This document shows positions 42,791 through 63,831 of a stretch of 64,000 nucleotides of DNA, in pieces. Within the stretch, counting starts at the first letter, position 1. The number at the start of each line of letters is the position of its first letter. The notes under the pieces are model-generated. The model saw nothing but the letters and a program-made list of their open reading frames with translations, did not search any database and was not told the origin of the DNA. Origin of the DNA: Methylorubrum populi (GTDB lineage Bacteria; Pseudomonadota; Alphaproteobacteria; Rhizobiales; Beijerinckiaceae); contig NZ_AP014809.1 in assembly GCF_002355515.1 (NCBI RefSeq), positions 761,001 through 825,000 on the forward strand, given 5' to 3'. The position numbers and the translations under genes were made by a program.

Positions 42791-42880
42791 GGAGGGGTGG
42801 CCGAGTGGTTGAAGGCGCACGCCTGGAAAGTGTGTATACCGGAAACGGTATCGCGGGTTCGAATCCCGCTCCCTCCGCCA
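42791..42880 (+). tRNA. tRNA-Ser (anticodon GGA), attachment site of the integrated element
   Basis: The sequence runs from GGAGGGGTGGCCGAGTGG to CTCCCTCCGCCA. The anticodon arm GCACG-CCTGGAAA-GTGTG-type loop carries GGA, the extra arm is long (class II), and GGTTCGAATCC is the T arm. The last pair of the acceptor stem is a G-T wobble. CCA is encoded. Its 3' end (42867-42880) is the attL core of the element, and the integrase gene starts 143 bases downstream, so insertion leaves the tRNA intact. Confidence 0.96.
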
Positions 42881-42881
42881 G
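42867..42881. repeat. attL core, direct repeat with attR
   Basis: CGCTCCCTCCGCCAG at the end of tRNA-Ser and one base beyond. The same 15 bases occur at 63817-63831. The first 7 (CGCTCCC) fit a tyrosine-recombinase overlap region and the last 8 (TCCGCCAG) one arm. Left of it is the tRNA T arm, so this junction carries the chromosomal left arm. Confidence 0.75.
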
Positions 42882-43022
42882 ATACCTGTTCGCAGCCATT
42901 CGCTGCTAACCGCTAAAGCCTTCAAATCATTGCGAGTTCGACAGCCTGCCGTTCGCGGCGGGCCGCTGGCGCTTGTCCAAATTCGCGATTACGATGTGGG
43001 TAGCATCGTGGGAACGGATCGG

Positions 43023-44201
43023 ATGCAGGGCAAACTCACAGCCCTTGGCGTGGCTAAGCTGAAGACGCCGGGCATGTACGGCGACGGCGGCGGTCTCTGG
43101 CTCCAAGTCACCGGAAAGGGCGGGAAGTCGTGGATCTTCCGCTTCACCCTCGATGGCAAGGCTCGCGAGATGGGCCTTGGCTCTGCCATGACGTTCTCTC
43201 TGGCCGAGGCGCGGGATAAGGCGCTCACCTGTCGGAAGTTCTGCGCCGAAGGCATCGACCCGATCGAGGCACGAAATGCCCGACGTGACGCGGCGCGCAT
43301 TGAGGCGGCGAAGGCGATCACCTTCCGCCAGTGCGCCACCACCTATATCGAGGCGCACAGGGCCGGCTGGCGCAATGCCAAGCATGCGGCGCAGTGGGCG
43401 GCCACGCTCGACACCTACGCCCATCCCGCTTTCGGTGACCTGCCCGTGCAGGCGGTCGATACCGCGCTCGTCATGAAGGCTGTGGAGCCGATCTGGGCAA
43501 CGAAGCCTGAGACGGCGATCCGCGTGCGGGGGCGAATCGAATCGATCCTTGATTGGGCGGCGACCCGCGGCTTTCGACGCGGGGAGAACCCGGCACGGTG
43601 GAAGGGGCACCTAGCCAACCTGCTGCCGAAGCGCTCGCGCGTGAAGAAGGTCGAGCACCACGCCGCGCTGCCCTTCACGGAGGTGCCAGCGTTCATGGAT
43701 GCCTTGGCCGAGCAGCCCGGCGTCTCCGCCAGGGCGCTCGCCTTCACGATCCTCACGGCAGCGCGGACAGGTGAGACCATCGGCGCCACGTGGTCGGAGA
43801 TCGACCTCGATGCGGGCGCGTGGACGGTACCGGCCGAGCGCATGAAGGCCGGCGCCGAGCACCGCGTACCGCTCTCCGACCCTGCGCTTCAGATCCTGCG
43901 CGAAATGGCAGCGATCCGATCGGGCGACTTCGTGTTCCCCGGCGGCAAGCGCGGGCGACCACTCTCCAACATGGCGATGCTGAAGACGCTGGAGCGCATG
44001 GGCCGAGATGACCTCACGGTGCACGGCTTCCGCAGCTCGTTCCGCGACTGGGCCAGCGAGACGACAGCCTTCCCGTCCGAGGTGGTCGAGGCGGCGCTGG
44101 CGCACACCATCGAGAGCAAGGTTGAGCGGGCCTACCGGCGCGGCGACCTGTTCCAGAAGCGACGAGAGCTAATGGGCGCGTGGGCGCAACATTGTCGGTG
44201 A
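43023..44201 (+). CDS. int: Tyrosine-type site-specific integrase (P4/DUF4102 type)
   Basis: The product is about 392 residues from ATG 43023; an in-frame GTG at 43008 is an alternative. The N-terminal DUF4102 domain has YGDGGGLWLQVTGKGGKSW, the core-binding domain follows (about 100-190), and the catalytic domain shows Arg in AARTGETIGATW, HGFRSSFRDWA (His-x-x-Arg), His in LAHTIESKVE and the nucleophile Tyr in AYRRGD. It should catalyse integration at tRNA-Ser next to it and excision with an AlpA-like factor. Confidence 0.95.
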   Translation: MQGKLTALGVAKLKTPGMYGDGGGLWLQVTGKGGKSWIFRFTLDGKAREMGLGSAMTFSLAEARDKALTCRKFCAEGIDPIEARNARRDAARIEAAKAITFRQCATTYIEAHRAGWRNAKHAAQWAATLDTYAHPAFGDLPVQAVDTALVMKAVEPIWATKPETAIRVRGRIESILDWAATRGFRRGENPARWKGHLANLLPKRSRVKKVEHHAALPFTEVPAFMDALAEQPGVSARALAFTILTAARTGETIGATWSEIDLDAGAWTVPAERMKAGAEHRVPLSDPALQILREMAAIRSGDFVFPGGKRGRPLSNMAMLKTLERMGRDDLTVHGFRSSFRDWASETTAFPSEVVEAALAHTIESKVERAYRRGDLFQKRRELMGAWAQHCR

Positions 44202-44231
44202 TCGAGCGCTCGGCAACCAAGGGATCTCTCA

Positions 44232-44810
44232 ATGCCTAGGCCATTTCATGATCTCGCGCTCCTCGTTGCAAGCGGATTCGAAACTGAGTCCGAGGTTGAG
44301 GAAGCTGTCAGCGCAGCGTTCAATCGACTTTCATGCGAGCTACTTGCTTCCCCGAAACTTGATCCACACGGCAGGCTGGAACTCAAAAGTCGGCTCGACG
44401 ACATGCATGTCATTTATGATGATTTCATAAAACTCTTCGCAGCTCTGCCAGTGGATAAAGAGAGCAGAGAAATCTATAAATTTCGGATCGCAAGGTTCCT
44501 CGATAGCGCGCTGATAATTGGAAGCATTTGCGGAAACAATGAGGCCGATCTTATAAAAGCATTCATAGCAAATAGAACTCGAATGCAAGAAGCAGAGGCA
44601 AAAAACTCTGCACTTCGCACGGCTATAATTGAGGAAGTCAACGCTGCAGGCTTGAGGCTTCGTAAGAGCGAAGCGTTCGCTCGCCGCATAGAAGAGGGTG
44701 TGTGGAAGCGGGCCGGTGTCGAAAGTGGGACCGAAGGGTTTGGCTACGCCAGCATTCTCAGGGAGATCAAAGCGATCCTGAAAGAGAAAGAGGGTCAGAC
44801 CTCGGCGTGA
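44232..44810 (+). CDS. Unknown helical protein of the element
   Basis: A 192-residue soluble protein that is predominantly helical with charged residues (MQEAEAKNSALRTAIIEEVN; SILREIKAILKEKE). Composition is AT-richer than its neighbours, suggesting separate origin. No family recognised. It follows the integrase by 30 bases, and a hairpin covers its stop. Confidence 0.55.
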   Translation: MPRPFHDLALLVASGFETESEVEEAVSAAFNRLSCELLASPKLDPHGRLELKSRLDDMHVIYDDFIKLFAALPVDKESREIYKFRIARFLDSALIIGSICGNNEADLIKAFIANRTRMQEAEAKNSALRTAIIEEVNAAGLRLRKSEAFARRIEEGVWKRAGVESGTEGFGYASILREIKAILKEKEGQTSA

Positions 44811-44817
44811 CCCTCTT
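44788..44817 (+). terminator. Hairpin over the stop codon of the unknown gene, terminator-like
   Basis: AAGAGGGTCA (44788-44797) and TGACCCTCTT (44808-44817) pair perfectly over 10 bases with a 10-base loop. No U run follows, so factor-independent termination is uncertain. It separates the integrase transcript from the AlpA gene. Confidence 0.4.
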
Positions 44818-44899
44818 CAACGCTTGAGGCAGCAAACTAGCCCGCGCAGTATTCTCTGGCCTTCGCCGCACAACCGGTGAATTCCTAGGGACAGCAGCC

Positions 44900-45127
44900 A
44901 TGAACTTGCAAAATGTTCAGGGCGCCGCAGAGAACCTGCGCGCGTCAACGGGGAAGCTTTTGCATCGTCCGAACGATGTGAAAGACGCTCTCGGCATCGG
45001 AACGACTACGCTCTACCGCCTAATCGGCGAGGGCAAGCTGAAGGTCGTCAAGATCGGTTCGGCCACCCGGATCACGGATGAGTCGATGCGCGCCTTTGTT
45101 GCCTCTCTGGAGCGGGAGGCGGCGTAG
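44900..45127 (+). CDS. AlpA-like helix-turn-helix regulator/excisionase
   Basis: A 75-residue DNA-binding protein with a MerR-like winged helix: LHRPNDVKDALGIGTTTLYRLIGEGKLKVVKIGSATRIT then DESMRAFVASLE. Such proteins act as AlpA activators or excisionase in P4-like satellites and integrative elements. The position between integrase and primase genes supports it. It is separated from the next gene by three bases. Confidence 0.85.
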   Translation: MNLQNVQGAAENLRASTGKLLHRPNDVKDALGIGTTTLYRLIGEGKLKVVKIGSATRITDESMRAFVASLEREAA

Positions 45128-45334: not shown

Positions 45335-45624
45335 GCGTGTCCCCCTCTACCCTGATCCCAGCTTCCGATCGCTGGGGACCGTTCGCGGATGACCTCGATC
45401 TAGCCGAGCGACGTGCCCGTCTGCGCGCGTTGCGGAGTGTCGTCCATCTCCTGATCGGCCCCCGCGCTGGTCAGTTGAGAGCGTTGCTCAAGGAAGCGGA
45501 AAACGATGCGGCGTTACTATCAGCTGCCTTGAAGGCTCTCGATGCGCTTGCGCCGCTGGACCGGCGCCGCGTGCTCGCCTCGTACGCTGCAATCGAACGG
45601 CCCAGCCCGGAGGTGCGCCGATGA
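45331..45624 (+). CDS. 97-residue helical protein, unknown
   Basis: The start ATG 45331 overlaps the previous stop, and its stop overlaps the following ATG (45621), so it lies in a coupled early operon. The product is helical and rich in Leu and Arg (ERRARLRALRSVVHLLIG). No family assigned; a small replication accessory is possible. Confidence 0.6.
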   Translation: MSVSPSTLIPASDRWGPFADDLDLAERRARLRALRSVVHLLIGPRAGQLRALLKEAENDAALLSAALKALDALAPLDRRRVLASYAAIERPSPEVRR

Positions 45625-46538
45625 TGGACCTCCGCACCGCTGCGCATCGGCTCGGCGGCGAGGTGTCGGGCCGGGGCATTGTCTGCCCTGGCGTCGGCCA
45701 CAGCGCCCGCGACCGCTCTCTCAGTGTCGTCTTCAGCCCGTCGGCACCGGGTGGCTTCTTGACCTTCAGCCATGCCGGCGACGACCCACTCGCCGCAAAG
45801 GACTTTGTACGGCAAAGGTTGGGGCTTTCGCTCAGCTGTGAGCAGAAGGTGTTCACGGAGGTCAGGCAGGCCGCATCGGCGCAGCCGCTCGATCCGGAAG
45901 CCGGAAAGCGCCCAGCCGATCACTCGGCACTTGCCCTCCGCATCTGGCGTGAGGCTCGAAACCCGGCAGGCACACCTGTCGAGAGCTACTTAGCGCGTCG
46001 TGGACTTGGCCTGCCTGCCAATCCGGGCGAAGTGCTGCGCTATCACGATGGCTGCCCCTTCGCAGGCACTTATACGCCGGCAATGGTTGCACTGGTCCGC
46101 AACATCCGCACGGACCGACCGCAGGCGATCCACCGAACCGCACTCTCCCTCGATGGCCATAAGATTCAAGTGGCAGGTCGGGACCGTGCCGCCCTCGGAC
46201 CGATAGCCGGCGGCGCCGTGAAGTGGACCCCCGACGCCGAGGTGACGACCTGCCTCGGCATCGGCGAGGGCATCGAGAGCACGGCATCGCTTCAGCACCT
46301 CCCCGAGTTCGGGGCCTCGCCGATCTGGTCGGTGCTGAACGAGGGCGGCATCTCAGCCTTTCCGGCCCTGGCCGGCATCGAGTGCCTCTGGATCGCGGTC
46401 GATCATGATTCCGCCGGCGAGCGTGCCGCCCGCGCCTGCGCAGGCCGGTGGCGCTCCGACGACAGGGAGGTGTTCGCCGTGAAGGCGAAGGCGCCCGGCA
46501 GCGACCTCAACGACATCCTGCAGGTGCACCATGTCTGA
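45621..46538 (+). CDS. Toprim domain (DnaG-like primase) protein
   Basis: A 305-residue protein of the DUF7146/Toprim type. N-terminal CPGVGHSARDRSLSVVFS resembles a zinc-finger-less DnaG N-domain; the Toprim part has IGEGIESTAS (Glu motif) and LWIAVDHDSAGERAARAC (DxD motif). It would make primers or process ends at the element's replication origin. The AAA ATPase gene overlaps its 3' end by eight bases. Confidence 0.85.
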   Translation: MMDLRTAAHRLGGEVSGRGIVCPGVGHSARDRSLSVVFSPSAPGGFLTFSHAGDDPLAAKDFVRQRLGLSLSCEQKVFTEVRQAASAQPLDPEAGKRPADHSALALRIWREARNPAGTPVESYLARRGLGLPANPGEVLRYHDGCPFAGTYTPAMVALVRNIRTDRPQAIHRTALSLDGHKIQVAGRDRAALGPIAGGAVKWTPDAEVTTCLGIGEGIESTASLQHLPEFGASPIWSVLNEGGISAFPALAGIECLWIAVDHDSAGERAARACAGRWRSDDREVFAVKAKAPGSDLNDILQVHHV

Positions 46539-47739
46539 GCCTGCCTACTCCATCGAGCGCCTGAGGCCCCGAGCCGCCGACCTTCCTCGCCCGCGGCAGA
46601 GCACGCCAATCGAGCTGCGCTGGCATGGCGATGCCGATCCGAATGCCGACCGGGCGTGGCTGATCCGCGAGATGATCGGCCAGACCGGCAAGGGCTTGCT
46701 CGCCGGGCAGTGGGGCGGCGGCAAGACCTTCGGCGCCCTCGATCTCAGCGCATCCGTGATGACGGGGCTGCCTTTCGCGGGCCGAAAGGTCATGCGGCAG
46801 GGCGGTGTCTTGTTCATCGCCCCCGAGGGCGCCTTCGAGATCCCGATCCGCCTCCGCGGCATCGTTCAAGGCAAGCTCGCCGAGCATGCACCCGAACGCC
46901 TGCCGTTCGCCTGGATAGAGGAATGCCCCCGGCTCCTCGATGGGGATGCGGTTCCGCAGCTCGTTGAGACCGCGAAGGTTGCCGCCGAGCACCTGGCTGA
47001 GGCGTTCGACCTCCCGCTGGCGCTGATCATCATCGACACGATGGCAGCCGGTGCTGGCTTCATGGATGAAAACAGTGCCGCCGAGGCACAGCGGGTGATG
47101 AACGCCATGGAGGCCCTGAGTCACCAGACGGGTGCCTTCGTCCTCGGGGTCGATCACTTCGGCAAGGCGGTCGAGACTGGAACGCGGGGCTCCTCAGCCA
47201 AGGAAGCCGCCGCAGATGTGGTCCTCGCCATGCTGGCCGAACGCGATCCTGCCGGTAGCATCAGCAAAACACGCATGGCCGTGAGGAAGGTGCGAGGCGG
47301 CCGTTGCGGCTACGAGATCCCCTACGAGTTGGAAGTCGTCACCGTCGGCGAGACCTACGACCGGGAGCCGATCACGACCTGCATCGTGCAGTGGCAGACG
47401 GATCGGACCTCAGCAGCAGCCGCCGCAGCAGTGAAGGAGCGGTGGCCCACGTCTCTCAAGGTCTTCAGGGAGGCGCTGAACACCGGCCTCGCAGACCACA
47501 GCATTCGCGCTTGGCCATTCGGCGCCGGGGGGCAGGAAGTCAAAGCCGTCGCCGTCGAGCGGGTTCGCGAGGCATTCTATGCCACTTACCCTGCAGACGG
47601 CAGCGATGAGGCCAAGCGGGCGGAGACCAAGCGGCGCACCTTTAACCGAGCCCTTTCTGGCGTCACCGGAAGAGGGTTGGTAGGATCTATCGAGCTGAGC
47701 GGAGTCGATCATCTGTGGCTGAAGCTCGACTCCGCGTAG
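46531..47739 (+). CDS. AAA family ATPase (RepA/DnaB-like helicase of the element)
   Basis: The product of 402 residues is a RecA-fold ATPase of the AAA_25/RepA group. Walker A is GQWGGGKTF (near residue 60), Walker B is LALIIIDTM, and FVLGVDHFGK provides a following sensor His. The C-terminal part (about 290-402) is a likely DNA-binding region. With the Toprim protein it forms the replication module. In plasmid and satellite systems this class is the replicative helicase. Confidence 0.85.
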   Translation: MSEPAYSIERLRPRAADLPRPRQSTPIELRWHGDADPNADRAWLIREMIGQTGKGLLAGQWGGGKTFGALDLSASVMTGLPFAGRKVMRQGGVLFIAPEGAFEIPIRLRGIVQGKLAEHAPERLPFAWIEECPRLLDGDAVPQLVETAKVAAEHLAEAFDLPLALIIIDTMAAGAGFMDENSAAEAQRVMNAMEALSHQTGAFVLGVDHFGKAVETGTRGSSAKEAAADVVLAMLAERDPAGSISKTRMAVRKVRGGRCGYEIPYELEVVTVGETYDREPITTCIVQWQTDRTSAAAAAAVKERWPTSLKVFREALNTGLADHSIRAWPFGAGGQEVKAVAVERVREAFYATYPADGSDEAKRAETKRRTFNRALSGVTGRGLVGSIELSGVDHLWLKLDSA

Positions 47740-48438: not shown

Positions 48439-48495
48439 TGGTTTCCTCCAAGGCTTCTTGGGTATCGGCGTGGAAAAAGGACCCGGCTGAGGGGC

Positions 48496-48518
48496 TGATC
48501 GGCGCCCAATAGGGACCC
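48496..48518. repeat. Left terminal inverted repeat of the IS21 element
   Basis: ATCGGCGCCCAATAGGGACCC at 48498-48518 is complementary to GGGTCCCTATTGGACGCCGAT at 50964-50984 with a single mismatch (C versus T). Confidence 0.85.
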
Positions 48519-48576
48519 ACCCCGCCCCCGTGCATCTCTTGCTCCCTACCGCTCACGGTCAGGGAGCCAGCCGGGG

Positions 48577-50082
48577 ATGTTGATCGTGGAGACCATCGCC
48601 AAGATCCGACGCTTGTTTCGTGAGCACCGGAGCATCCGGGAGATCTCGCGCGAGCTGCGCCTATCCCGCAAAGTCGTGCGCAAGGCGCTGCGCTCGGACA
48701 AGACCGCCTTCGCCTACAAGCGCCAGCACCAGCCCCGGCCGCAACTCGACGGACACATCGCGCGCCTCGACGTCCTGCTGGCCGAGGAGTTGATCAAGCC
48801 CAAACGCGAGCGCCTCAGCCTCACGCGCCTGTTTGAGGGGCTACGGGCGGAGGGCTATGCCGGCGGCTACGACGCGGTGCGCCGCTACGCGCAACGCTGG
48901 TTTGCGGAGCATGTCGCCACCGCCGCTGGTGTGTTCGTGCCGCTCGCCTTCGCGCCGGGTGAGGCCTACCAGTTCGACTGGAGCCACGAGACCATCCGAC
49001 TTGCCGGCATCACCACGCAGGTCAAAGTCGCCCATATCCGGCTCTGCCACAGCCGGCTCTTCCTGCTGCGAGCCTACCCGCGTGAGACGCAGGAGATGGT
49101 CTTCGACGCCCATGAGCACGCCTTCCGGTTCTTCGGCGGCTCCTGCAGGCGCGGCATCTACGACAACATGCGCACCGCCGTCTCGGCAATCTTCGTGGGT
49201 CGCCAGCGCACCTTCAACCGCCGCTTCCTTCAGCTCTGCTCGCATCACCTGACCGAGCCCACCGCCTGCAACCCCAGCGCGGGCTGGGAGAAGGGACAGG
49301 TCGAGAACCAGGTGCGCACCGCCCGCAACCGCTTCTTCAAGCCGGTCCTGCGTTTCGAGACGCTGGTCGACCTCAACCACTGGCTCGAGCAGCAGTGCCG
49401 GCTCTGGGCTTCCACCGCGGTCCATCCGGTTCAACGCGACCGCACCGTCCAAGCGGTCTTCGAGACCGAGGACCAGCCGGCGCTGATCCCCTACCGCGGC
49501 GCGTTCGACGGCTTCCACGAGGTCGAGGTGGTCACCTCCAAGACCTGCCTCGTGCGCTACGACTCCAACCGCTACTCGGTGGCCGCCCGCGCCGCCGGGC
49601 GACACGTGCAGCTGCGTGCCTATGCCGACCGGATCGCCATCTTCCTCACCGGCCAGATCGTGGCCGAGCATGCGCGTTGCTTCGGCCGCTACCAGACCGT
49701 CTACGATCCCTGGCACTACCTGCCCGTGCTGGCCCGCAAGCCCGGAGCGTTGCGCAACGGCGAGCCCTTCCGTGAGTGGGACCTGCCCGGCGGCTTGGCT
49801 CAGATCCGCGAGCGGTTGCGTGCACATGCCGATGGCGATCGGCAGTTCGTCGCGATCCTCTCGGCCGTGCCCGAGGCAGGCCTGGGGGCGGTCGAGGCTG
49901 CATGCACCGCCGCCTTGGCCGCGCGTCTGTTCAGCGCCGATGCGGTGCTCAACCTGCTCGCGCGCAGCCGCGAGAGCGTCCCCCCTGCGCCGGTGCCAAC
50001 ACCCGCCAGCTTGACGCTTGGGGTCGAGCCTGCGGCGGATTGCGCGCGCTACGACGGCCTGCGCGCTCTGGAGGCGATCTGA
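48577..50082 (+). CDS. istA: IS21-family transposase IstA
   Basis: A 501-residue DDE transposase. An N-terminal helix-turn-helix ([19 protein letters not shown]) binds the ends; the catalytic core has Asp in YQFDWSHE, Asp in IYDNMRTAV and Glu in [16 protein letters not shown]-terminal Mu-type beta domain ([21 protein letters not shown]) follows. The gene is intact, with istB starting at its stop (TGATG). Confidence 0.95.
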
Positions 50083-50813
50083 TGGAGCGACACACCGTCG
50101 TCGACCTGATGGTCAAGCTCAAGCTGCGCGGCATGCGCGCCGCCTACGACGAGATCATCACGCAAGCTGGCAAGCGCGGACATGCGCCAGAGCGGGTCGT
50201 GGGGGATTTGCTGGCCGCGCAACTGGCTGACGTGGAGAGTCGGGCCACGGCCTACCGCATGGGCAACGCGAAGTTCCCGGTCCTGAAGACGCTGGCCGAG
50301 TTTGACCTGACCGCCTCGCCGGTGAACGCGGCGATGGTGCGCGACCTGCACCAGGGCAACTTCCTGACTGACAGCCGCAACGCGGTGCTGATCGGCGGCA
50401 CGGGCTCGGGTAAGACGCATCTGGCCATCGCGATCGGGGCGAACTGTGTGCGGGAGCGGGAGGCGCGGGTGCGCTTCTTCAACACGGTCGATCTGGTCAA
50501 CCAGCTTGAGGCAGAGGCGCGGGCAGGCAAGGCCGGCCGGCTGGCCTCACAGCTGGCACGGATGGACCTCGTGATCCTGGACGAACTCGGCTACCTACCG
50601 TTCCCGCGCGCTGGCGGGCAGATGCTGTTCCATCTGGTCAGCCGGCTCTACGAGCGAACCTCGATGATCGTGACGACGAACCTGCCGTTTGGCGAGTGGC
50701 CGAGCGTGTTCGGGGACGCGAAGATGACAACGGCGCTACTCGACCGGCTCACGCACCACTGCGATATCCTGGAAACGGGCAATGCCAGCTGGCGGCTGAA
50801 GACGCGCAGCTGA
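50082..50813 (+). CDS. istB: IS21-family ATP-binding protein IstB
   Basis: A 243-residue AAA+ ATPase that helps IstA target. Walker [16 protein letters not shown], Walker [14 protein letters not shown] and [12 protein letters not shown] sensor 1 are all present. Its start overlaps the istA stop by one base. The gene is intact, so the IS is probably active. Confidence 0.95.
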
Positions 50814-50939
50814 GTGCCGATTGTCTCAAAGAGCCGAGGCCCGATCCGCCGTCAGGCTGGAGACGAGGCCGATGCCGCTCCGCTGACCCGACCGGCTGCG
50901 CGGCATCGGCCTCTGCGTCGGCGCTCATACGCGGCGGGT

Positions 50940-50989
50940 GGGTCCCTTTTGGACGCCGATCCTGGGTCCCTATTGGACGCCGATTGACA
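50940..50989. repeat. Right end of the IS21 element with two tandem end repeats
   Basis: GGGTCCCTTTTGGACGCCGAT (50940-50960) and GGGTCCCTATTGGACGCCGA(T) (50964-50984) are direct copies three bases apart with one difference, followed by TGACA (50985-50989). IstA binding sites of IS21 are arranged like this. Confidence 0.8.
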
Positions 50990-52699: not shown

Positions 52700-52712
52700 C
52701 TAGGAGCGCCTC

Positions 52713-53237: not shown

Positions 53238-53248
53238 CGGGGGAGAGC

Positions 53249-55307: not shown

Positions 55308-55333
55308 AAAAAGCCAACGCAGGAGAAAATACT

Positions 55334-55663
55334 ATGACACCCAAAAATCTGACGCCCAAAATGATGGACCGCATCCTTGAGCTTTGCGTTCCCAAGCTCA
55401 GCGAAGAGGATCTGCTGATTTTGGAGGGGAAGCTTGCGAAGATGATCCCGGCGGAAACGCTTGCCGCCGACAGTGCTCTCAAGCGGAGAACATTGCTCGC
55501 GATGGATAGCCGCAAGCGCGGTACTGCTTCACATCGGCAGTATGCCGGCCGAGCACTCTCCGTGACGGAGCAGAAGGCCCTCGCCAAGGACGCTTCGCCA
55601 ATCCCGGCGGTCGATGTCGGTGTCCTTGAGGCCATGTTCCCGAACATGAAGCGGATGCAGTGA
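55334..55663 (+). CDS. 109-residue protein of the late operon, unknown
   Basis: GGAGA precedes the ATG. The product starts MTPKNLTPKMMDRILELCVP and has a helical centre (LSEEDLLILEGKLAKMI). No family recognised. It precedes a coiled-coil gene by overlap of the stop and start. Confidence 0.5.
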   Translation: MTPKNLTPKMMDRILELCVPKLSEEDLLILEGKLAKMIPAETLAADSALKRRTLLAMDSRKRGTASHRQYAGRALSVTEQKALAKDASPIPAVDVGVLEAMFPNMKRMQ

Positions 55664-56346
55664 TGAGCCGCCTCGCACTCAAGCAGGAGGGGTCGCGCGA
55701 TCCCTCGCGCGCCGCCCTTGCGGACGCGATCGCCCGTCTGGCCGAGCGCCAGGTCGAGCGCGATCGGATCAAGGCGGCTTTCGATGCCGCTGAGCAGCGC
55801 GGCTTGGACCTTTACCCAGAGATCGACGCGGCCGAGGTAGCGGTCCAAGAGGCGACAGCCCTTCAGCGTGACGAGCTTGTCGCGTCTGTGATGCGCGGCG
55901 ACGAGGTACCGACGAACCGGCGGCTGTCAGAGGCTGAGGCGCGGCTGGCAGCAGCCCACCAGCAGCAGGCTGCCATTCGAGAGGCCAGGAAAGCCTTGCG
56001 CGTCGATCTCGACAGCTTTGAGGAGTCCGTACGCCTCGCCGGGGGGACGGTTGCCGAACACGCTCGCATCGTCCTCTGGCAGGCAATGCCCGACCTCATT
56101 CGTGCGGCTGAGCCGGTTCGGCGGCAGCTTCGCCAGATGGTCGAAGTCCTGAAGCTCATCACGGACAATCGACCTCACACGCTGGTCGCCAATGATCCGC
56201 GCAGCGACTACGAGACCGCGCTGTCTTTCATGCGCCCCGTTCTGATGGTCGCCACAGATAGCCCAAGCGGCGACGCTGCGGCTTGGGCGGCGGTGTTCGA
56301 CAGCCTGCTCACGGACCCGGATGCGCCTCTGCCCACTATCGGCTGA
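55663..56346 (+). CDS. Coiled-coil protein of the late operon, unknown
   Basis: About 227 residues from ATG 55663 (GTG 55660 is also possible). The middle (EARLAAAHQQQAAIREARKAL) is a coiled coil. Length and place fit a scaffold or head-tail assembly factor, but no similarity supports that. Confidence 0.5.
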   Translation: MSRLALKQEGSRDPSRAALADAIARLAERQVERDRIKAAFDAAEQRGLDLYPEIDAAEVAVQEATALQRDELVASVMRGDEVPTNRRLSEAEARLAAAHQQQAAIREARKALRVDLDSFEESVRLAGGTVAEHARIVLWQAMPDLIRAAEPVRRQLRQMVEVLKLITDNRPHTLVANDPRSDYETALSFMRPVLMVATDSPSGDAAAWAAVFDSLLTDPDAPLPTIG

Positions 56347-56485
56347 GGCCCAAGAGATCGGCGCACAGGCGTCGCCGGTAGCGGCTAGTCGGGCAGTGCC
56401 GCCGAACAAGTAACCCCGACAGCCGGCACGCCTCCTTTTCCTGTTGCGGAGGCGGTGGCCGGCACCTCGCACGTGAGTAGCGCCG

Positions 56486-57442
56486 ATGGCTGAGCAGTAC
56501 CTACGCACTGTCCGACTCTTCGCTGATGGCCGCGAGGTTTTCAGCGCGCGTGAGAAGACGGGCGAGGCACCGGGCGCGCTTCGCATCCGGTTCCAAGTCC
56601 AACAGATGGACGCAAGCAAGCCGAATGTCTGTAGTGTCATCGTCACCAACCCTGCACCGTCCAGCGTCAAGACCTTCATGCAGGAGCGGAAGAAGATTAG
56701 CCTGTCCGTCGGCTACCAGAACCACGATCAGGTCGTCTTCAAAGGCGAGATCATCCAGACACGATCCGGCCGCGAGGACATCACCGACACCTACATGCAC
56801 GTCATCGCACGCAGCATGGATCGGGCCCGCAACTATGCAACTGTGAACCAAGCGCTTGCTGCCGGGCACACGTACCGCGACCGCATCGACGTCGCCGTGA
56901 AGGCGATGCGCGAGTACGGCATGGAAGTCGGCCACATCGCGGACCTTGGCAACAAGAAGTTCCCCCGCAACTACATCGCCTTCGGCATGGCGAAAGACCT
57001 GCTGCGCGAGGTTTGTGAGGGTGCTGGCGCATCCTGGAGCATTCAGAACAACGTCTTCCAAGTGGTGAAGAACGATCAAGCGCTGCCTAACTCGCGGGTT
57101 GTTCTGAACAGCAACACTGGCCTCATCGGAAGGCCCGTTCAGACGATCCAAGGCGTCGAAGGCCGCGCCCTGCTCAATCCCATGCTCAAGCCCGGCGGTC
57201 TGGTCGAGATCAACGAGAAAAGCGTCGAGCAAGCGACGATCAATCCCGCCTATCGCGGCGAACAATACAATTCGATGATCCAGCGCATCGCAGCTGATGG
57301 CGTCTATAAGCTGTATGTCGTGGAGCACATAGGCGACACGCGCGGGCTAGAGTTCTACACGGACTTCATCGGCATCGCGAACGGCGATCCTATCTCCAAG
57401 GCGCTCGCCTCCCGCGGCATCAGCGACGCGGAGGGCGCATGA
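56486..57442 (+). CDS. Phage baseplate hub-like protein (gp27/gpD type)
   Basis: A 318-residue beta-rich protein. YLRTVRLFADGREV starts it; the middle DTYMHVIARSMDRARNYATV and LREVCEGAGASWSIQNNVFQVVKN follow the pattern of late-control or hub proteins in tailed phages. The later NPMLKPGGLVEINEKSV and GDTRGLEFYTDFI fit too. It would form the tail tip hub. The call is by pattern and context. Confidence 0.6.
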   Translation: MAEQYLRTVRLFADGREVFSAREKTGEAPGALRIRFQVQQMDASKPNVCSVIVTNPAPSSVKTFMQERKKISLSVGYQNHDQVVFKGEIIQTRSGREDITDTYMHVIARSMDRARNYATVNQALAAGHTYRDRIDVAVKAMREYGMEVGHIADLGNKKFPRNYIAFGMAKDLLREVCEGAGASWSIQNNVFQVVKNDQALPNSRVVLNSNTGLIGRPVQTIQGVEGRALLNPMLKPGGLVEINEKSVEQATINPAYRGEQYNSMIQRIAADGVYKLYVVEHIGDTRGLEFYTDFIGIANGDPISKALASRGISDAEGA

Positions 57443-57762
57443 CCGCCGAGATCGCGCATCTCCCCCTCTGCTGTGCCGGCGAGCATGTCATCCGGCATGA
57501 GTACCGCTACTCGCGGGTTGGCCGCATCGAGATCATGGTGGGCCGCGTGGTCTCGACGGACACGTCGCGGTTCGCAGTCTACTTGCAGGCGCCGGGCGTC
57601 GAAAACCAGCTCGTGGCGACGGTGACAGGCGACGACCTCGACCGCATTGGCGATTTCCTCGACACGCTTTGGAAATCGGTTGAGACCGCGCTGTACTTTG
57701 CGCAGCAGCACTCTGACGATCTGCTTGCCGCTGACGAGCCGCAGCCTTGGGGGGCGGCATGA
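57439..57762 (+). CDS. 107-residue protein of the tail operon, unknown
   Basis: The ATG overlaps the previous stop (ATGA). The product begins MTAEIAHLPLCCAGEHVIRH and includes VGRVVSTDTSRFAVYLQAPG. It lies between a hub-like and a morphogenesis-like gene, so a tail role is likely. No family recognised. Confidence 0.5.
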   Translation: MTAEIAHLPLCCAGEHVIRHEYRYSRVGRIEIMVGRVVSTDTSRFAVYLQAPGVENQLVATVTGDDLDRIGDFLDTLWKSVETALYFAQQHSDDLLAADEPQPWGAA

Positions 57763-58277
57763 CGGTGAAGCGGACATCGAGGAAAGATCCGATCGAGCGC
57801 GTGCTGGCGATGCTGCGGAAGAGCCGCGTTCTCGTTGGCATCCCGGCCGAGGCTGGTCGAGACGGCGGCGGCCCCTCGAATGCCGTCCTCGGCTACCTCC
57901 ACGAGTACGGCGAGCCGGAGCGCAACATTCCGGCCCGGCCGTTCCTCCGTCCGGGCGTGGAGAGCGTCGGAGAGAAGATCGTAGAGGAGCTACAGCGCGG
58001 CGCGCAACGCGCTGTGGCCGTCGTGATTGGTCCCTCCGGTAGCTTCGAGCAGGCCATCCCCGAGGTGGACCAAGCGCTCCACCGGATTGGCCTCGTGGCC
58101 CAGAACGCAGTGCGCGCTCGGATCTCTGAAGGCATCCCGCCGCCCCTGTCGCCCCGAACGATCTACGCGCGGCTGCACCGGAAGAAGGGGCGACGCAGCG
58201 GGGGCGAGATGAAGCCCCTCATCGACAGCGGCCAGCTTAGACGATCCGTGACATATGTAGTCGAGACGAGGCGGTGA
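57759..58277 (+). CDS. Phage virion morphogenesis/tail completion-like protein (HK97 gp10/Mu gpG type)
   Basis: The protein of 172 residues has VLVGIPAEAGRDGGGPSNAVLGYLHEYG, then RNIPARPFLRPGV, the family-typical start, and KPLIDSGQLRRSVTYVV at the end. Such proteins join tails to heads or complete tail tips. The ATG at 57759 overlaps the previous stop by ATGA, and the tape measure gene overlaps the stop. Confidence 0.7.
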   Translation: MTVKRTSRKDPIERVLAMLRKSRVLVGIPAEAGRDGGGPSNAVLGYLHEYGEPERNIPARPFLRPGVESVGEKIVEELQRGAQRAVAVVIGPSGSFEQAIPEVDQALHRIGLVAQNAVRARISEGIPPPLSPRTIYARLHRKKGRRSGGEMKPLIDSGQLRRSVTYVVETRR

Positions 58278-60166
58278 TGGCAGACAAGGTTCTCGAAAGC
58301 TTCTTCCTTTCGCTCGGCTGGAAAGTCGATGAGGAGAGTCAGCGGAAGTTCAACGACAGCGTCAAGGCGGTCAGCAAGGTCGCGACCGGCCTCGCCGCAA
58401 CCTTCACCGGGATGGCGTTGGCCGCTACCGCCGCTGTGGCCAAGGTGGCTGCGAGCTTCGACACGCTGCTCTTCGTCAGCCAGCGAACCGGCTCCTCCGT
58501 TCAGGGCATCAAGAGCCTGCAATATGCGTTCTCGCAGCTCGGCGGCTCGTCGGAGCAGGCGACAGGCTCGATTGAGAGCTTTGCGCGCTCGCTGAGGACC
58601 AATCCCGGCCTGCAGAAGTTCATCGGCGACCTTGGCGTTGCGACCATGGAGGGCGGCAAGGCGCGCGACAGCGTGGAAGTGCTGCTCGACAGCATCGACG
58701 CCATCAAGAAGCGCAATCCGTACTATGTCGGCGCTCAGTACGCCGAACTGCTCGGGATCGACGAAAGCACGTTCAACCTGCTCTCGCGGCAGATGGATCA
58801 GCTGAAGACCTTCCGCGCCGAGTACGACCGAATTGCCAAGGCCATCGCTCTCGACAACGAGGAAGCCGCCAAGGCCGGCGCCAGCTTCCAGCGCTCTCTG
58901 ACGTCGATCTATGCCATCCTTTCAGCGGTTGGACAGAAGTTGCTCATCGAGCTTGCGCCGGGACTGGAGCGAGTAGCGAAGGCACTGCTTGGCTGGTTCG
59001 AGGCACATCCGCAGGAAGTCGCCGAGGCCCTGGCCAGCATCCACCGAGCGGTAGAGACCTTCGCCAAGAGCGTCGAGAACGGTGACCTCGCGCGCGGCTT
59101 GGAGCGGATCGGAACGAGCGTCCTGGCCATCGGCAAGGGGCTCGAATCCATCCTAGGGCTTATGGCGAAGCTCGGGCTTGTCGGCAGCGGCGACAGCGTG
59201 CTCGGCCGTGGCTTCACGCACCTGTTCGGCAGCAAGGAAGAAGTGACGGGCCAGATCGAGCGTGACCTGAACCGGCAGCGGGAGGCCGAGCAGCCCGGCC
59301 TGCTCCGTCGCGGCTACAACTACCTGCGCCGCAAAATCGGCCTTAGCACTGATGAAGGCAGCGGTGCTGGTGCGGGAGCCCCGCAGGATGCGCCTGGCGG
59401 CTCCAAGGCGTCGATCGCAGGCAAGACCTTCCGTGAGAAGGCGCCGGGCGTGATGAAGCGCCTGATTGAGGACTTTGGCCTGTCCAAGGAAGAGGCCGGC
59501 GTCGTGCTCGGCAATCTAGGGCACGAGAGCGCTGGCTTCACCGCTTTCGAGGAAGGGGGCAACGGCCCCGGCCCTGGCTGGGCTCAGTGGACCGATCCCG
59601 GTCGCAAGCGCCGGTTCTTCGAGTACGCAAAGCAGCGGGGGCTCGATCCGAAGAGCGACGAGGCGAACTACGGCTTCCTCCGCTGGGAGCTTCAGAACAC
59701 GCATAAGGGTTCGATCGCCGCGCTCAAGCGAGCCGAGACGACCGAGGAGAAGATGCGCGTCTTCGAGCGCGACTTCGAAGGTGCGGGCGTCAAAGCCTAT
59801 GGAAGCCGCAACAAATATATGCGGGACGCCATCAAAGCGTTTGACGATGCGCAGAACCGCCCGCTGCCGCCGCCTCCCTCGAACGACAACCCCAGCCCGG
59901 CCATATCGCAGGCCCCGCCGCGAAAAATGCAGATGCCGGGCGGCGGCGTGTCGGCGGAGCAGTTCGATCGGATGTTCCTGTCATCCCCGCCCATGGGCGT
60001 CGGCGGCAGCACGACGACCACGAATGATCACCGTAGCATCACCATCCAGAACGACGTGACGCTGCAAGGAACGGGTGACGGGCGGTCAGATACACAGCGG
60101 TGGGAACTTTCAATGGAGCGCTACTCGTCAGGTGCCCTTCGCGACGCTCAGACCGCAATCCGATAG
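58277..60166 (+). CDS. Tape-measure protein with phage tail-tip lysozyme domain
   Basis: A product of about 629 residues. The N-terminal helical part (1-350) is a tail length/tape-measure type with a membrane-like segment (VATGLAATFTGMALAATAAVA). Residues about 385-540 form the tail lysozyme domain (GVVLGNLGHESAGFTAFEEG; GPGWAQWTDPGRKRRFF) with catalytic Glu in GHES. The C-terminus is Pro-rich. It would set tail length and cleave peptidoglycan at entry. GAGG lies five bases before ATG 58277. Confidence 0.8.
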   Translation: MADKVLESFFLSLGWKVDEESQRKFNDSVKAVSKVATGLAATFTGMALAATAAVAKVAASFDTLLFVSQRTGSSVQGIKSLQYAFSQLGGSSEQATGSIESFARSLRTNPGLQKFIGDLGVATMEGGKARDSVEVLLDSIDAIKKRNPYYVGAQYAELLGIDESTFNLLSRQMDQLKTFRAEYDRIAKAIALDNEEAAKAGASFQRSLTSIYAILSAVGQKLLIELAPGLERVAKALLGWFEAHPQEVAEALASIHRAVETFAKSVENGDLARGLERIGTSVLAIGKGLESILGLMAKLGLVGSGDSVLGRGFTHLFGSKEEVTGQIERDLNRQREAEQPGLLRRGYNYLRRKIGLSTDEGSGAGAGAPQDAPGGSKASIAGKTFREKAPGVMKRLIEDFGLSKEEAGVVLGNLGHESAGFTAFEEGGNGPGPGWAQWTDPGRKRRFFEYAKQRGLDPKSDEANYGFLRWELQNTHKGSIAALKRAETTEEKMRVFERDFEGAGVKAYGSRNKYMRDAIKAFDDAQNRPLPPPPSNDNPSPAISQAPPRKMQMPGGGVSAEQFDRMFLSSPPMGVGGSTTTTNDHRSITIQNDVTLQGTGDGRSDTQRWELSMERYSSGALRDAQTAIR

Positions 60167-60206: not shown

Positions 60207-61040
60207 CTATGGCACAGACCCAGTACTCGGCTTAGTGTTCATGCCCTTATTCTTTTCTTCGATTGCCTTCTTTTCCTCACTTCGCAGAAGTTCAAGCTGC
60301 TTTGACTGAGCATTCATGCCTTCTTGCAACTGCTTGATCACATCCATATATTTTTCGTGCAATTTCTCGCGCTGAGTAGCTATATCTACTCGCTCCTTAA
60401 TTAATGCATCATTCATCTGCTTTCGCTCTTCTTGCGCCGAATTGTAAACTAAATATGACGCTAGCAGCAGCATCGCTGCCGGCAGCACAAGAGACATATT
60501 GGAAATCCACCACATGCGCTCGACACGAGACTTGGTCGGTGGAGTAGAAGGCTCAACGGCCAATGAGCGATCGACACCGACAGATGCTTCGTAAATTCTT
60601 CCCACCACTTTGGTCTCAATATCTTCATTATCAATGAATACCGACTCGCGCAGAGCGACTGGCGCATAAATCTCGATCAGATCTATAAGATCTTCGCCTT
60701 TGATGCCCAACTTTTCAAAAGCTGCAGTTATGACCTCAAGTGAGATATTAAGACTCGAATATCTTATGCCCCTGTACTTGATGATTAGTGGAACACCAAC
60801 CCCGACATGCGGACGCAGCAACTCTGCTAGAGTGCCACCGAACCGAGATTGAATTCTGTTTTCCTGTCTCCGAACGAAATTATCAAATTGAGCCGGCCCT
60901 TCGGAACTTGGATCAGAAGAATCTAGATCGTACCGACGAGATGCCTGTTGCCAGAAAAGAGACCTACTATCAGACCGCTTAGAGCGATCTAACCCTTCAA
61001 CTCCAGCGAATTTAAACTTTATATCAACAATTATTCGCAT
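60207..61040 (-). CDS. Membrane-anchored coiled-coil protein, unknown (cargo candidate)
   Basis: A 277-residue protein. A basic N-terminus (MRIIVDIKFKFAG), a soluble domain of about 180 residues (RSLFWQQASRRYDLD; IIKYRGIRYSSLNISLEVI), one membrane helix (LVLPAAMLLLASYLVYN) and a coiled coil (ERKQMNDALIKERVDIATQREKL) of Lys/Glu/Gln. Composition is AT-richer than the late operon. AGGGA eight bases before ATG 61040. No family recognised; position at the end of a prophage-like element is typical for defence or conversion genes. Confidence 0.6.
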   Translation of the reverse strand: MRIIVDIKFKFAGVEGLDRSKRSDSRSLFWQQASRRYDLDSSDPSSEGPAQFDNFVRRQENRIQSRFGGTLAELLRPHVGVGVPLIIKYRGIRYSSLNISLEVITAAFEKLGIKGEDLIDLIEIYAPVALRESVFIDNEDIETKVVGRIYEASVGVDRSLAVEPSTPPTKSRVERMWWISNMSLVLPAAMLLLASYLVYNSAQEERKQMNDALIKERVDIATQREKLHEKYMDVIKQLQEGMNAQSKQLELLRSEEKKAIEEKNKGMNTKPSTGSVP

Positions 61041-61092
61041 TCTCAATCCCTGCTATTTATCGAAACTGTGCAAAAACTTTGACCGGCTCAAT

Positions 61093-61431
61093 CTATCGGC
61101 TTGATGGCCAAGCACAAACTTTGGCCCACTCGTTCACCCAGCAGCCGCCACTCTTCCGCATGGTGCCGAGAGGCGACTGTGCGTGAGAGGCCCTTGGCTC
61201 CTCATTCCAGTACCCCTCTGCGGATGCGCCATCAGTCGCGTTCACGATGGCAAAGATCGGTGAGCGACTGGCATCGCCAGTCCCGACCGAGAGACTACCA
61301 TCCTTTTCGCGGTCGGCATTGCACTGTCCAAACGTGAACGCCTTGCCGTCTACCTCAATGAGGCAGCGAGCCTGTTTCGCGTAGACGGCAGCTGGAAAAG
61401 CTATCAGGCAGAACGCAATCGCGAGGCGCAT
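61093..61431 (-). CDS. Secreted protein, 112 residues, unknown
   Basis: Signal peptide MRLAIAFCLIAFPAAVYAK with cleavage at AKQA. The mature 93 residues contain four Cys (ARCLIEV, FGQCNAD, GGCWVNEW, VCAWPS) that likely form two disulfides. No family recognised. It is in the same direction and close to the two neighbouring cargo genes. Confidence 0.6.
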   Translation of the reverse strand: MRLAIAFCLIAFPAAVYAKQARCLIEVDGKAFTFGQCNADREKDGSLSVGTGDASRSPIFAIVNATDGASAEGYWNEEPRASHAQSPLGTMRKSGGCWVNEWAKVCAWPSSR

Positions 61432-61453
61432 GACTTAACCCTCACTACACCAA

Positions 61454-61945
61454 TTATTTCAGGAGCTTGAGATCAGGCACTGACTTGAATGTGTCTCGTC
61501 CAGCTTGGTTAACTTCCATTCCGCACAGGAGCTGCGACACTCGTTTCGAAGCGAAAAATCCAGGCTTATCCCCACCTCCGAGATCATAATGCAGTGTATG
61601 TCCGGCCATGACATGCGCACGCGGATCGTACCGAGGGATTTGCTTGGGCTCGTTGGGAACATCCATGGTGACATGGACAGAGAATTTCCAGCTTTCTGGA
61701 TGATTAGATGCCGGTATTCCGCCGGAATACTCCGCCCGTATTTCTTTTATATCAGATAGATACGTGTTGAGCGGCGCACAGTTTCGAAGAAAAATCTCTA
61801 CGGCCCGCCGGATCTCGTTCTCAGAGGCTCCAGCACCAGTTGATTTGACGACAACGGGCGGACTAGCGGCAAGACTCTGCGAGGCAAACATGAGATTGCT
61901 CGGCACAGCAGCAGTGCCGAGCAGCAGTAAAATCTTCGGAGTCAT
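61454..61945 (-). CDS. Secreted protein, 163 residues, unknown
   Basis: Signal peptide MTPKILLLLGTAAVPSNLMF, cleavage near SLAASP. The mature part carries one Cys (RNCAPL) and FSVHVTMDVPNEPKQIP. No family recognised. It precedes the 112-residue secreted protein by 22 bases and is probably co-transcribed. Confidence 0.6.
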   Translation of the reverse strand: MTPKILLLLGTAAVPSNLMFASQSLAASPPVVVKSTGAGASENEIRRAVEIFLRNCAPLNTYLSDIKEIRAEYSGGIPASNHPESWKFSVHVTMDVPNEPKQIPRYDPRAHVMAGHTLHYDLGGGDKPGFFASKRVSQLLCGMEVNQAGRDTFKSVPDLKLLK

Positions 61946-61993
61946 GGCGTGCCTCAGGATCCTTCACCAACAGCGGGCGCGGTAGAGGCAGCC

Positions 61994-62833: not shown

Positions 62834-63228
62834 GCGAATCCGCGTCCCGTCGCGGCTTCCTCCGCGATCTCGCCACGCTTCCGCTCATCGGCGGCAGCGT
62901 GACGCTCATCGGCACCCCGACTGCGGTCGCCGCCCCCATCACGGAAAGCCTGCTCGACAGCTACGACGCTTGGCTTGAGTACGAGCGGCGCTGGCTTCAG
63001 TGGGAAAGGAATAAGGGCACCGAAGCCATCTATCGGATGCATCTGCCATTCGTGATGCAGATGTACGACGCCGAGCATCGACCGAAGGGCGAGCCCAGAC
63101 CGTGCGACTACATTCCGGCGGCCAATGCCGGGGCACAGTTCCACGGCATGGGTGAGCCGCCCGCCTCGTCCCGCGCCGCTCTCGTGTTGAGCGCGGTCGG
63201 CTGCAACTGGCGGGAGGGCGGACTATGA
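62830..63228 (+). CDS. Tat-signal-like protein, 132 residues, unknown
   Basis: The N-terminus MSESASRRGFLRDLATLPLI has SRRGFLRD, a Tat twin-arginine signal, followed by a hydrophobic stretch (GGSVTLIGTPTAVAA). The mature region has WLEYERRWLQWERNKG. It is translationally coupled to its neighbours by ATGA overlaps. Function unknown. Confidence 0.55.
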   Translation: MSESASRRGFLRDLATLPLIGGSVTLIGTPTAVAAPITESLLDSYDAWLEYERRWLQWERNKGTEAIYRMHLPFVMQMYDAEHRPKGEPRPCDYIPAANAGAQFHGMGEPPASSRAALVLSAVGCNWREGGL

Positions 63229-63464
63229 GGCTATCTCCAGCCCGAGGAGCTTGGTCTGAAATCGCCGACATGGAAAGCGGCGTGAAGGATGTGGAACGGT
63301 ACGGCCTCATCCTTCAGCACTTGGCCGAGTCCCCTTTCGCGCTTGAAGGGTCGGAATTGCACCTCGTTGCTGACTTGCTCAAAGCGCACGGCCAGAAGCT
63401 CGCTCAGCAGTGGAACGCTGCCCTTGCGGTAGCGGTCAGGTGTGAGGGCCGGTCATGCGATTGA
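63225..63464 (+). CDS. 79-residue protein, unknown
   Basis: The ATG overlaps the preceding stop. The helical protein has VERYGLILQHLAESPFALEG and ELHLVADLLKAHGQ. The next gene begins 10 bases before its stop. No family recognised. Confidence 0.5.
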   Translation: MRLSPARGAWSEIADMESGVKDVERYGLILQHLAESPFALEGSELHLVADLLKAHGQKLAQQWNAALAVAVRCEGRSCD

Positions 63465-63625
63465 TTCGAGCCTATCACGCAATGGCGCACGTCCGGCTGG
63501 CGGTTGGCTTGCTTCACCTCTCGCTGGGCTTCGGCTGGCTCGGCGAGTGGCTGTGGCACCAAGCTAAAGGGCAGATGGACCGTGCTGCCGAGATCGCCAC
63601 TCGAACGGGGATTGCACGTCAATAG
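63455..63625 (+). CDS. 56-residue membrane peptide, unknown
   Basis: From ATG 63455 the product MRLIRAYHAMAHVRLAVGLL continues with one membrane helix (LHLSLGFGWLGEWLW) and a basic tail. It overlaps the previous gene by 10 bases. It could be a holin-like or membrane accessory peptide, but this is a guess. It is followed by a strong hairpin. Confidence 0.5.
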   Translation: MRLIRAYHAMAHVRLAVGLLHLSLGFGWLGEWLWHQAKGQMDRAAEIATRTGIARQ

Positions 63626-63633
63626 CTCATGGC

Positions 63634-63652
63634 CCGGCCGCGCAGCGGCCGG
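63634..63652 (+). terminator. Strong GC hairpin after the last gene of the element
   Basis: CCGGCCGC (63634-63641), loop GCA, GCGGCCGG (63645-63652), 8 perfect pairs nine bases past the last stop. No U run, so it is a possible rho-assisted terminator of the right-end operon. Confidence 0.45.
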
Positions 63653-63816
63653 AGGACTCGCCAACTTGGCGACTGCTTGCTCGGGCCGTCCCAACCTCAC
63701 TGCCGTCCCGGTTCGCACACATCCGACATCGCTTTGTGGGTTCAGATGTGGGTAGAGCTACTGACTAAGGATCTAAACCAATGCAAAACAACAATATTTT
63801 CAGTGAAGCTGGCGGA

Positions 63817-63831
63817 CGCTCCCTCCGCCAG
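63817..63831. repeat. attR core, direct repeat with attL
   Basis: CGCTCCCTCCGCCAG identical to 42867-42881. Immediately left is CTGGCGGA (63809-63816), the reverse complement of the right arm TCCGCCAG, so this junction holds the element's left arm. Right of it the sequence returns to GC-rich chromosome. Confidence 0.75.

Follow-up and report, generated by a model that had tools for sequence, protein, structure and literature searches.

A satellite-type element with terminase and tail genes

Does a region with phage terminase and tail genes but no head genes belong to a damaged prophage, or to a satellite that uses the heads of another phage? The question is raised by a 64,000-nucleotide stretch of Methylorubrum populi DNA (NZ_AP014809.1, positions 761,001 to 825,000; here called the window), in which an element of ~21 kb spans positions 42867-63831. 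An earlier note on this DNA read the element as a capsid-less satellite that brings tails and borrows heads, with a clean head deletion from a prophage as the alternative. We consider it fairly likely that this is a head-less phage satellite that would make chimeric virions, the mixed particles probably being built, by analogy with a known system, from satellite and full-phage parts.

The element is bounded by the end of a tRNA-Ser gene and by a 15-bp repeat, the longest exact match between 42750-43000 and the rest of the window rightward (others were 12-14 bp). Its GC content is 0.632, compared with 0.709 in the window to the left of the tRNA-Ser gene. The early genes that the earlier note had named, for an integrase, an AlpA-like helix-turn-helix (HTH) regulator, a Toprim protein, and an AAA protein, were all backed by Pfam. 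We take the domain set of the integrase as a marker of P4 integrases, and we presume from its position that the HTH_17 protein deserves the name AlpA. A satellite is recognized by an integrase and replication genes at an attachment site with an incomplete set of virion genes, and a P4-like one by the Pfam domains of a P4-type integrase and an AlpA-like regulator; all of these were found.

The large terminase (TerL), baseplate hub, gp10-like (Neck1), and tape measure protein (TMP) genes of the earlier note were likewise supported by Pfam or PHROG matches. With 98% of its sequence coding and no gap larger than 139 bp, the late operon (52310-60166) has no room for a portal gene or a capsid gene of normal size, just as that note had stated. 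The features are as follows, with lengths in amino acids (aa) and open reading frames abbreviated as ORFs.

42791..42880, + strand: tRNA-Ser (GGA), the attachment gene (ARAGORN; Rfam RF00005)
42867..42881: attL core repeat, 15 bp, at the tRNA-Ser 3' end (exact copy at 63817-63831)
42930..44201, + strand: tyrosine integrase, Arm-DNA-bind_3/Phage_int_M/Phage_integrase (Pfam)
44900..45127, + strand: AlpA-like HTH regulator (HTH_17; Pfam, 2e-7), kept after the integrase gene in related elements
45621..46538, + strand: Toprim primase-like protein, 305 aa (Pfam Toprim_3, DUF7146; phrog_510, DNA primase)
46531..47739, + strand: AAA_25 replication ATPase/helicase, 402 aa (Pfam; phrog_906, phrog_2850)
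48489..50990: IS21-type insertion, a later arrival, ends approximate (Pfam Mu-transpos_C_2, rve, IstB_IS21; terminal repeats by eye), with istA at 48577-50082 and istB at 50079-50813
52310..52699, + strand: small terminase (TerS) candidate, 129 aa (by position; conserved beside TerL)
52713..53237, + strand: 174-aa beta-rich protein, possibly a capsid decoration protein (a weak assignment from its model and Foldseek)
53249..53479, + strand: 76-aa late-operon ORF (tight operon spacing)
53476..53817, + strand: 113-aa late-operon ORF, overlapping the preceding ORF by 4 bp and TerL by 1 bp
53817..55307, + strand: TerL (phrog_2, 4e-19; alignment)
55334..55663, + strand: 109-aa protein homologous to the C-terminal part of a phage head maturation protease (profile match)
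55660..56346, + strand: 228-aa long helical hairpin protein, candidate capsid-assembly (Sid- or scaffold-like) factor (39-ORF family; AlphaFold)
56486..57442, + strand: baseplate hub protein (Pfam E217_GP41, 3e-7; phrog_196, 4e-58; PDB Pam3 hub gp19, 8e-13)
57439..57762, + strand: 107-aa ORF adjoining the TMP module, present in relative G001 as well
57747..58277, + strand: tail completion/Neck1 protein, HK97 gp10 type (phrog_222, 3e-38)
58274..60166, + strand: TMP with a Phage_lysozyme2 domain (phrog_2276, 8e-37; Pfam, 3.5e-19)
60207..61945, - strand: three genes of 279, 112, and 163 aa, probable cargo (ORFs)
63817..63831: attR core repeat (exact copy of 42867-42881)

The IS21-type insertion separates the early genes from the late genes. 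Without it, the distance from the AAA gene to the TerS candidate is 2,069 bp, and the same interval in relative G002 is ~2.1 kb (15270 to 17353), with content that differs from the window's and includes a Neck1 gene. Because the spacings match, nothing of the size of a head module was lost at the insertion, which rules out a head deletion by IS21.

The head-less layout recurs in the genus

The earlier note had proposed that the same layout be sought elsewhere. Of 99 relatives, 13 had a match to the window's TerL, and every one of these belongs to the same genus; a profile of 18 TerLs found a match in 24 of the 111 genomes of the genus. Near-full-length copies numbered 30, in 22 of these genomes, and the other two genomes had fragments. 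We took a census of all 30 copies, including the window's, with six-frame ORFs of at least 50 aa and iterated profiles seeded from genus prophages and phage contigs. It covered the TerL strand between 2 kb ahead of TerL and 9 kb beyond it; at least 7.7 kb follows TerL in 24 copies, and 0.07-3.8 kb in the six short ones (G053a, G053c, G113c, G144c, G128, and G115c). The head-less layout was present throughout, with no portal, capsid, sheath, tube, or baseplate wedge gene detected by these profiles in any of the 30 copies. G049 does have matches beyond the census range, to a portal 7 kb upstream and to a sheath 16 kb downstream, where there is another prophage.

A homologue of the TerS candidate lies beside TerL in all 30 copies, and in 28 copies a protein of one of three families is found near where the 228-aa protein would be. 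The protease-derived fragment was found in 18 copies and a TMP in 19, five of the 11 TMP-less copies being among the six short ones. Six copies (G055, G049, G146, G145, G113b, and G115c) have a chaperone-family ORF.

The capsid profile matched all six contractile prophages used as controls, although four of them had supplied seeds and the match in G054c16 is only 57 aa long and lies where its stretch ends. We also scanned 27 late ORFs of ~200 aa or more that had no assignment against PHROG. They matched 19 families, none of them portal or capsid. These ORFs were chosen among 146 late ORFs and come from 18 TerL-bearing copies and nine elements with a hub gene. Not included were ORFs already assigned as protease, TMP, or invertase, nor, in G055, a 543-aa ORF that lies upstream of TerS and, in G143, a 422-aa ORF on the minus strand. 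The 146 comprise 144 of 153 listed ORFs (nine tape measures or near-copies were omitted) and two that were added; their own PHROG scan gave the best 25 of 56 families, which alone does not exclude portals. The last 12 TerL copies were covered by the profile census and lie outside the PHROG scans. Capsid-forming phage-inducible chromosomal islands (cf-PICIs) are recognized by portal and major capsid genes. Here the operon is full, and neither gene was found in the 30 copies or the 27 ORFs.

The earlier note had proposed a search at other tRNA-Ser sites. In a tRNA scan of 24 stretches, the integrase gene adjoins tRNA-Ser in G001 and in a second, TerL-less element of the G053a contig. Five further stretches hold tRNA-Glu, -Lys, or -Arg somewhere, and the remainder hold none.

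Tail genes shared with phages

The genome of the window (G000) has a contractile prophage on contig 1, within 5,028,000-5,075,999. By PHROG, it has TerL, portal, head protease, capsid, Neck1, sheath, hub, and wedge genes, and the gene for a "virion structural protein" (phrog_280) that adjoins the sheath gene was taken for the tube gene. Among its proteins compared, only the hub, Neck1, and TMP match the satellite (50%, 47%, and 41-46%, respectively). Sheath, probable tube, and baseplate wedge genes are all absent from the satellite. Therefore, a helper would have to supply the head and most of the tail. The idea of a satellite that brings tails and borrows heads has to be narrowed accordingly: a head-less satellite type stands, but the tails are not brought as stated, only TMP, hub, and Neck1. 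The resident contractile prophage, with its full set of structural genes, is a candidate helper. The satellite's own TMP and hub, with no tube or sheath, also give it the pattern seen in the PLE satellites discussed below.

In a TMP tree, the TMPs of the window and G016 were placed beside that of phage G112 (97/97), and the TMP of satellite G140 beside that of phage G147 (100/100). The starred branches of this tree force at least three changes between satellite and phage labels. By these comparisons, TMP and hub genes have been exchanged between phages and satellites more than once. The G112 TMP also has the same lysozyme domain as the window TMP, for which the TMP of the resident prophage gave no match.

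Satellites G055, G049, and G106 have a siphovirus-type TMP in place of the contractile type, and G055 has a Phage_TAC_15 chaperone. Tail assembly chaperone family phrog_1688 matched eight of the 146 late ORFs. ORFs of the same family as the gene preceding TMP in the resident phage are found in G145 and G146 and in TerL-less G142, G143, G013, and G041. The repeated passage of TMP and hub genes, taken with the siphovirus-type TMP and chaperone set in related elements, suggests that the cassette is matched to the tail type of the helper. In the window, an assignment of the 107-aa ORF at 57439-57762 as a tail assembly chaperone was not supported, and the Neck1 protein (57747..58277) had no sequence match in the PDB.

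The genus also has head-less elements with no TerL within the stretches examined (L093 G115b, L096 G054c59, L097 G023, L103 G143, L104 G142, and L105 G041). In these, a hub gene, with a TMP gene where the contig reaches, faces minus-strand genes, which are Toprim-like in G143 and G142. An added baseplate gene is found in G023, G142, G143, G041, and also G013. On G053 contig 305 (L022/L023), a TerL-bearing element lies back to back with a TerL-less one that has integrase, hub, and TMP genes and sits at tRNA-Ser. The G053 genome has three near-full-length TerL copies.

Head-related pieces

The profile of the 109-aa family matches residues 302-357 of the head maturation protease of the G112 prophage (i-Evalue, 3e-18). 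The same profile matches a full-length protease fusion kept in satellite G115a, and satellite G049 has a full DUF2213 protease (Pfam, 3e-51). The C-terminal part of the protease may act as a scaffold, as in protease-scaffold fusions.

The 228-aa protein belongs to a family of 39 ORFs, with members of 154 to 480 aa as called. Its AlphaFold model (pLDDT, 89.7) is all helix and forms a long hairpin, which argues against a hidden capsid protein. A Foldseek search with this model found P4 Sid (7jw1_E) at rank 24, with TM-scores of 0.49/0.48 and an E value of 0.55. There was no match at E 0.001 or better in a search of viral structures, where the best match (E 0.024) was a tape measure.

Relatives of the 174-aa protein were found in G049, G055, G053b, G144, L114, and L116. 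Its AlphaFold model has a pLDDT of 69, and the top Foldseek match is an 84-aa chain of a gene transfer agent capsid (6tb9; E 0.18). A low-confidence model and a match of this kind give no more than a hint of a capsid decoration protein.

The terminase and the wider family

The TerL residues GRxxGK, DE, D311, D368, and HDD, to which we assign their presumed functional roles, are invariant in all 18 aligned sequences. The 17 others are 44-62% identical to the window's TerL. Among 50,697 phage records, TerL had five matches, at most 29.9% identical and none with 80% coverage, and no solved structure matched the TerL profile. The TerS candidate had no Pfam or PHROG match of its own.

With each species represented by one genome, a scan yielded 185 TerL relatives, and ~67 of the best 80 are from Alphaproteobacteria. 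In 76 of these 80 GTDB loci, the TerS candidate is no more than 1.4 kb upstream of TerL. Where at least 5 kb was available downstream (67 loci), the commonest pattern by eye was TerL, a few small genes, and one long ORF. Fifty large unlabelled ORFs near the GTDB TerL relatives were mainly tape measures among the best 25 of 124 PHROG families, a scan that alone does not exclude portals. Viral contigs provided 61 TerL relatives. Because 14 of them carry a portal-like gene near TerL, the TerL family includes true phage members. The distant relatives L182, L201, and L205, in which genes for a head protease and Neck1 follow at a greater distance downstream, may or may not be head-less. The window's place in a quick TerL tree is in a starred set of 14 rows (SH-aLRT, 96). 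Besides the window, this set contains 12 named Methylobacteriaceae and one viral contig, and no row in it is flagged as portal-bearing. As far as these comparisons go, the head-less element family is old and widespread.

Direct repeats at both ends (114 bp in L195 and 60 bp in L196) suggest that these two IMG/VR viral contigs are circular or terminally redundant. After removal of one repeat they are 9,705 and 9,338 bp, respectively. Both have integrase and TerL genes, and profiles flagged a TerS candidate and a family-c56 protein in each. All 120 listed homologues of a 698-aa protein of L195 bear Pfam PF06791, and several are named tail length tape measure protein. L196 had no intact TMP frame among its listed ORFs, and its 132-aa ORF is HK97 gp10-like by eye only. 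Inspection of the listed ORFs of both contigs, made without a PHROG scan, revealed no head gene. From their sequences, L195 and L196 look like complete head-less circles of 9.3-9.7 kb, and they are possibly the smallest complete members of the family.

At the right end of the window's element, the three minus-strand genes (60207-61945) have a lower GC content and no Pfam or PHROG family match at E 0.001. By eye, one product has a coiled coil and a likely membrane segment, and two have likely signal peptides. They are possibly cargo or defence genes.

Alternative explanations

The alternative raised by the earlier note, a prophage whose head module was cleanly deleted, can be taken as close to refuted. 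It would account for a late gene order that is phage-like minus the portal-to-capsid stretch, with an insertion nearby. However, all 30 genus copies share the head-less layout, which makes such a deletion very unlikely, and their TerLs have diverged (17 aligned, 44-62% identical). There are also many relatives in Alphaproteobacteria, some terminally redundant contigs are head-less, sheath, tube, and wedges are missing too, and the spacing at the insertion indicates no large loss. It is just as improbable that a gene-transfer or tailocin-like device of the host has retained tail and terminase genes. Tail genes without head genes would fit, but the element has its own integrase, att repeats, and replication genes, and a TerL match was found in only 24 of 111 genomes. 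Furthermore, no tailocin can form because sheath and tube are absent. A small phage with a new kind of head, in which the 228-aa protein or its counterparts form an unrecognised capsid shell, has only slightly better prospects. The 228-aa protein is conserved after TerL, where head genes belong, and 28 of 30 copies have one of the three families. Even so, the window's member, from the one family of the three that was folded, is confidently predicted to be a helical hairpin rather than a shell fold, members vary from 154 to 480 aa, and there is no portal candidate and no sheath or tube to accompany the hub.

A more serious competitor, although still unlikely, is that the tail genes serve interference. 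The satellite would borrow the whole helper virion, and its TMP, hub, and Neck1 would be dominant-negative decoys that spoil helper tails. Satellites and prophages that block tail assembly are known, as described for Tai (PMC11364771) and for Rta of PLE11 (PMC12987554), and some of the present elements hold only part of the tail set. However, the window's TMP is full length and keeps its lysozyme domain, the tail type switches as a set in G055, G049, and G106, and the tail genes accompany the element's own TerS and TerL, plus a chaperone in some relatives. Because a full-length TMP travels with TerS/TerL and some chaperones, these genes resemble an assembly set rather than a small inhibitor.

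Several observations weigh against the head-less satellite that we favor. Six copies with adequate downstream sequence (G036a, G036b, G104, G141, G101, and G099) have none of the tested TMP families, and hub and Neck1 are in just 11 and 12 of the 30 copies, respectively, so the tail set is not uniform. Nor was a tail assembly chaperone recognized in the element of the window. A TerL match in a genome did not go with an enrichment of sheath-bearing prophages (3/24 versus 6/87; Fisher p 0.40). Portal seeds were few: the portal profile matched two prophage stretches and a 333-aa non-seed ORF in G049, but those two are the only ones of the six stretches that reach the portal, and both are seeds. 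Homology of the 228-aa protein to Sid is not established, and a role in capsid remodelling is a guess because unrelated coiled coils fit its model equally well or better. The IS21-type insertion may cut late transcription in the window's copy and may have impaired that particular copy. Finally, particle formation, excision, and induction are predictions from gene content.

Proposed mechanism and comparison with known systems

On the satellite explanation, the element would sit at tRNA-Ser, excise by its own integrase and AlpA-like pair, and copy itself with its Toprim and AAA proteins, as their families suggest. When a contractile-tailed helper grows, the satellite would take its portal, capsid, sheath, tube, and baseplate, the parts that it does not itself encode. 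More speculatively, the protease-derived fragment and helical hairpin might bias the borrowed capsid protein toward satellite heads. TerS and TerL, the latter with its motifs intact, would recognize and package satellite DNA, a presumed specificity. By analogy with PLE, a tail made of helper tube and sheath would be initiated by the satellite's hub and given its length by the satellite's TMP, and the satellite's Neck1 would join this chimeric tail to the head. Such a tail would eject satellite DNA and disfavor helper particles.

P4 and PICI-type satellites generally use helper TerL and whole helper tails, and some have capsid size factors (P4 Sid and SaPI CpmA/B). The present element is like them in its P4-type integrase, AlpA-like regulator, and primase and in a presumably borrowed, perhaps remodelled, capsid; it is unlike them in bringing TerL, TMP, hub, and Neck1. 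The cf-PICIs carry their own terminase pair and head genes and borrow tails. The present family likewise has a terminase pair, but head genes were not found in its 30 copies. Putative tmp genes are noted in some cf-PICIs (PMC12987554, ED Fig. 10 legend). The P4 alpha-type primase-helicase is described as a single 777-aa protein (PMC4936722), whereas here 305-aa Toprim and 402-aa AAA proteins are separate. The Pseudomonas satellite AH14b shares an integrase, AlpA, and Toprim primase with the present element; it is ~17 kb and is packaged in the capsid of a resident prophage, and the account of it names no structural genes beyond a tail assembly protein I homologue (PMC4936722).

The closest parallel is with the PLE satellites of Vibrio cholerae phage ICP1, the one satellite family for which chimeric tails were reported, in 2026 (Nature; PMC12987554). 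According to that account, they encode their own TMP, and in PLE11 also hub and chaperone, 20-41% identical to those of the helper, and they take tube, sheath, and fibres from a contractile phage. In PLE11 virions, the TMP and hub of PLE occur together with most of the tail components of ICP1, and deletion of the PLE TMP lowers transfer by ~99.9% (PMC12987554). The present family is also head-less with its own TMP and hub, and its hub, Neck1, and TMP are 41-50% identical to those of the resident phage. Unlike PLE as described there, it has its own TerS/TerL and a head-protease-derived fragment, is mostly from Alphaproteobacteria, has a candidate helper prophage in the same genome, and includes siphovirus-type versions. 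This comparison sets a published description of PLE, rather than its gene sequences, beside a family seen only as genes.

Chimeric-tail satellites are already known from one family. What appears new, in that it was not found in the literature searched, is that a swappable tail core goes together with the element's own TerS/TerL, that the family extends so widely across Alphaproteobacteria, and that it has variants of different tail type; no report of the TerS/TerL-bearing family was found in that literature, the scope of which left out most subscription papers and bioRxiv. A bolder form of the proposal seems to us evenly balanced between right and wrong. In it, this is a widespread family independent of PLE with a kit for hybrid virions: TerS/TerL, a scaffold decoy and hairpin that re-size capsids, and a swappable, helper-fitted tail-core cassette (TMP with or without hub, Neck1, and chaperone) re-captured from phages.

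To the PLE satellites, this family adds 19 TMP-bearing copies in one genus of mostly plant and soil bacteria, some with contractile-type and others with siphovirus-type cassettes. Because both types exist and a candidate helper is in the window's own genome, the reason why satellites replace the TMP and hub of a helper is directly testable. Regions with TerL and TMP but no capsid gene are easily called degraded prophages, and they may instead be intact satellites. If the bolder proposal is true, the members of 9.3-9.7 kb would come near the smallest set of genes with which a tailed virion can be taken over at both of its ends.

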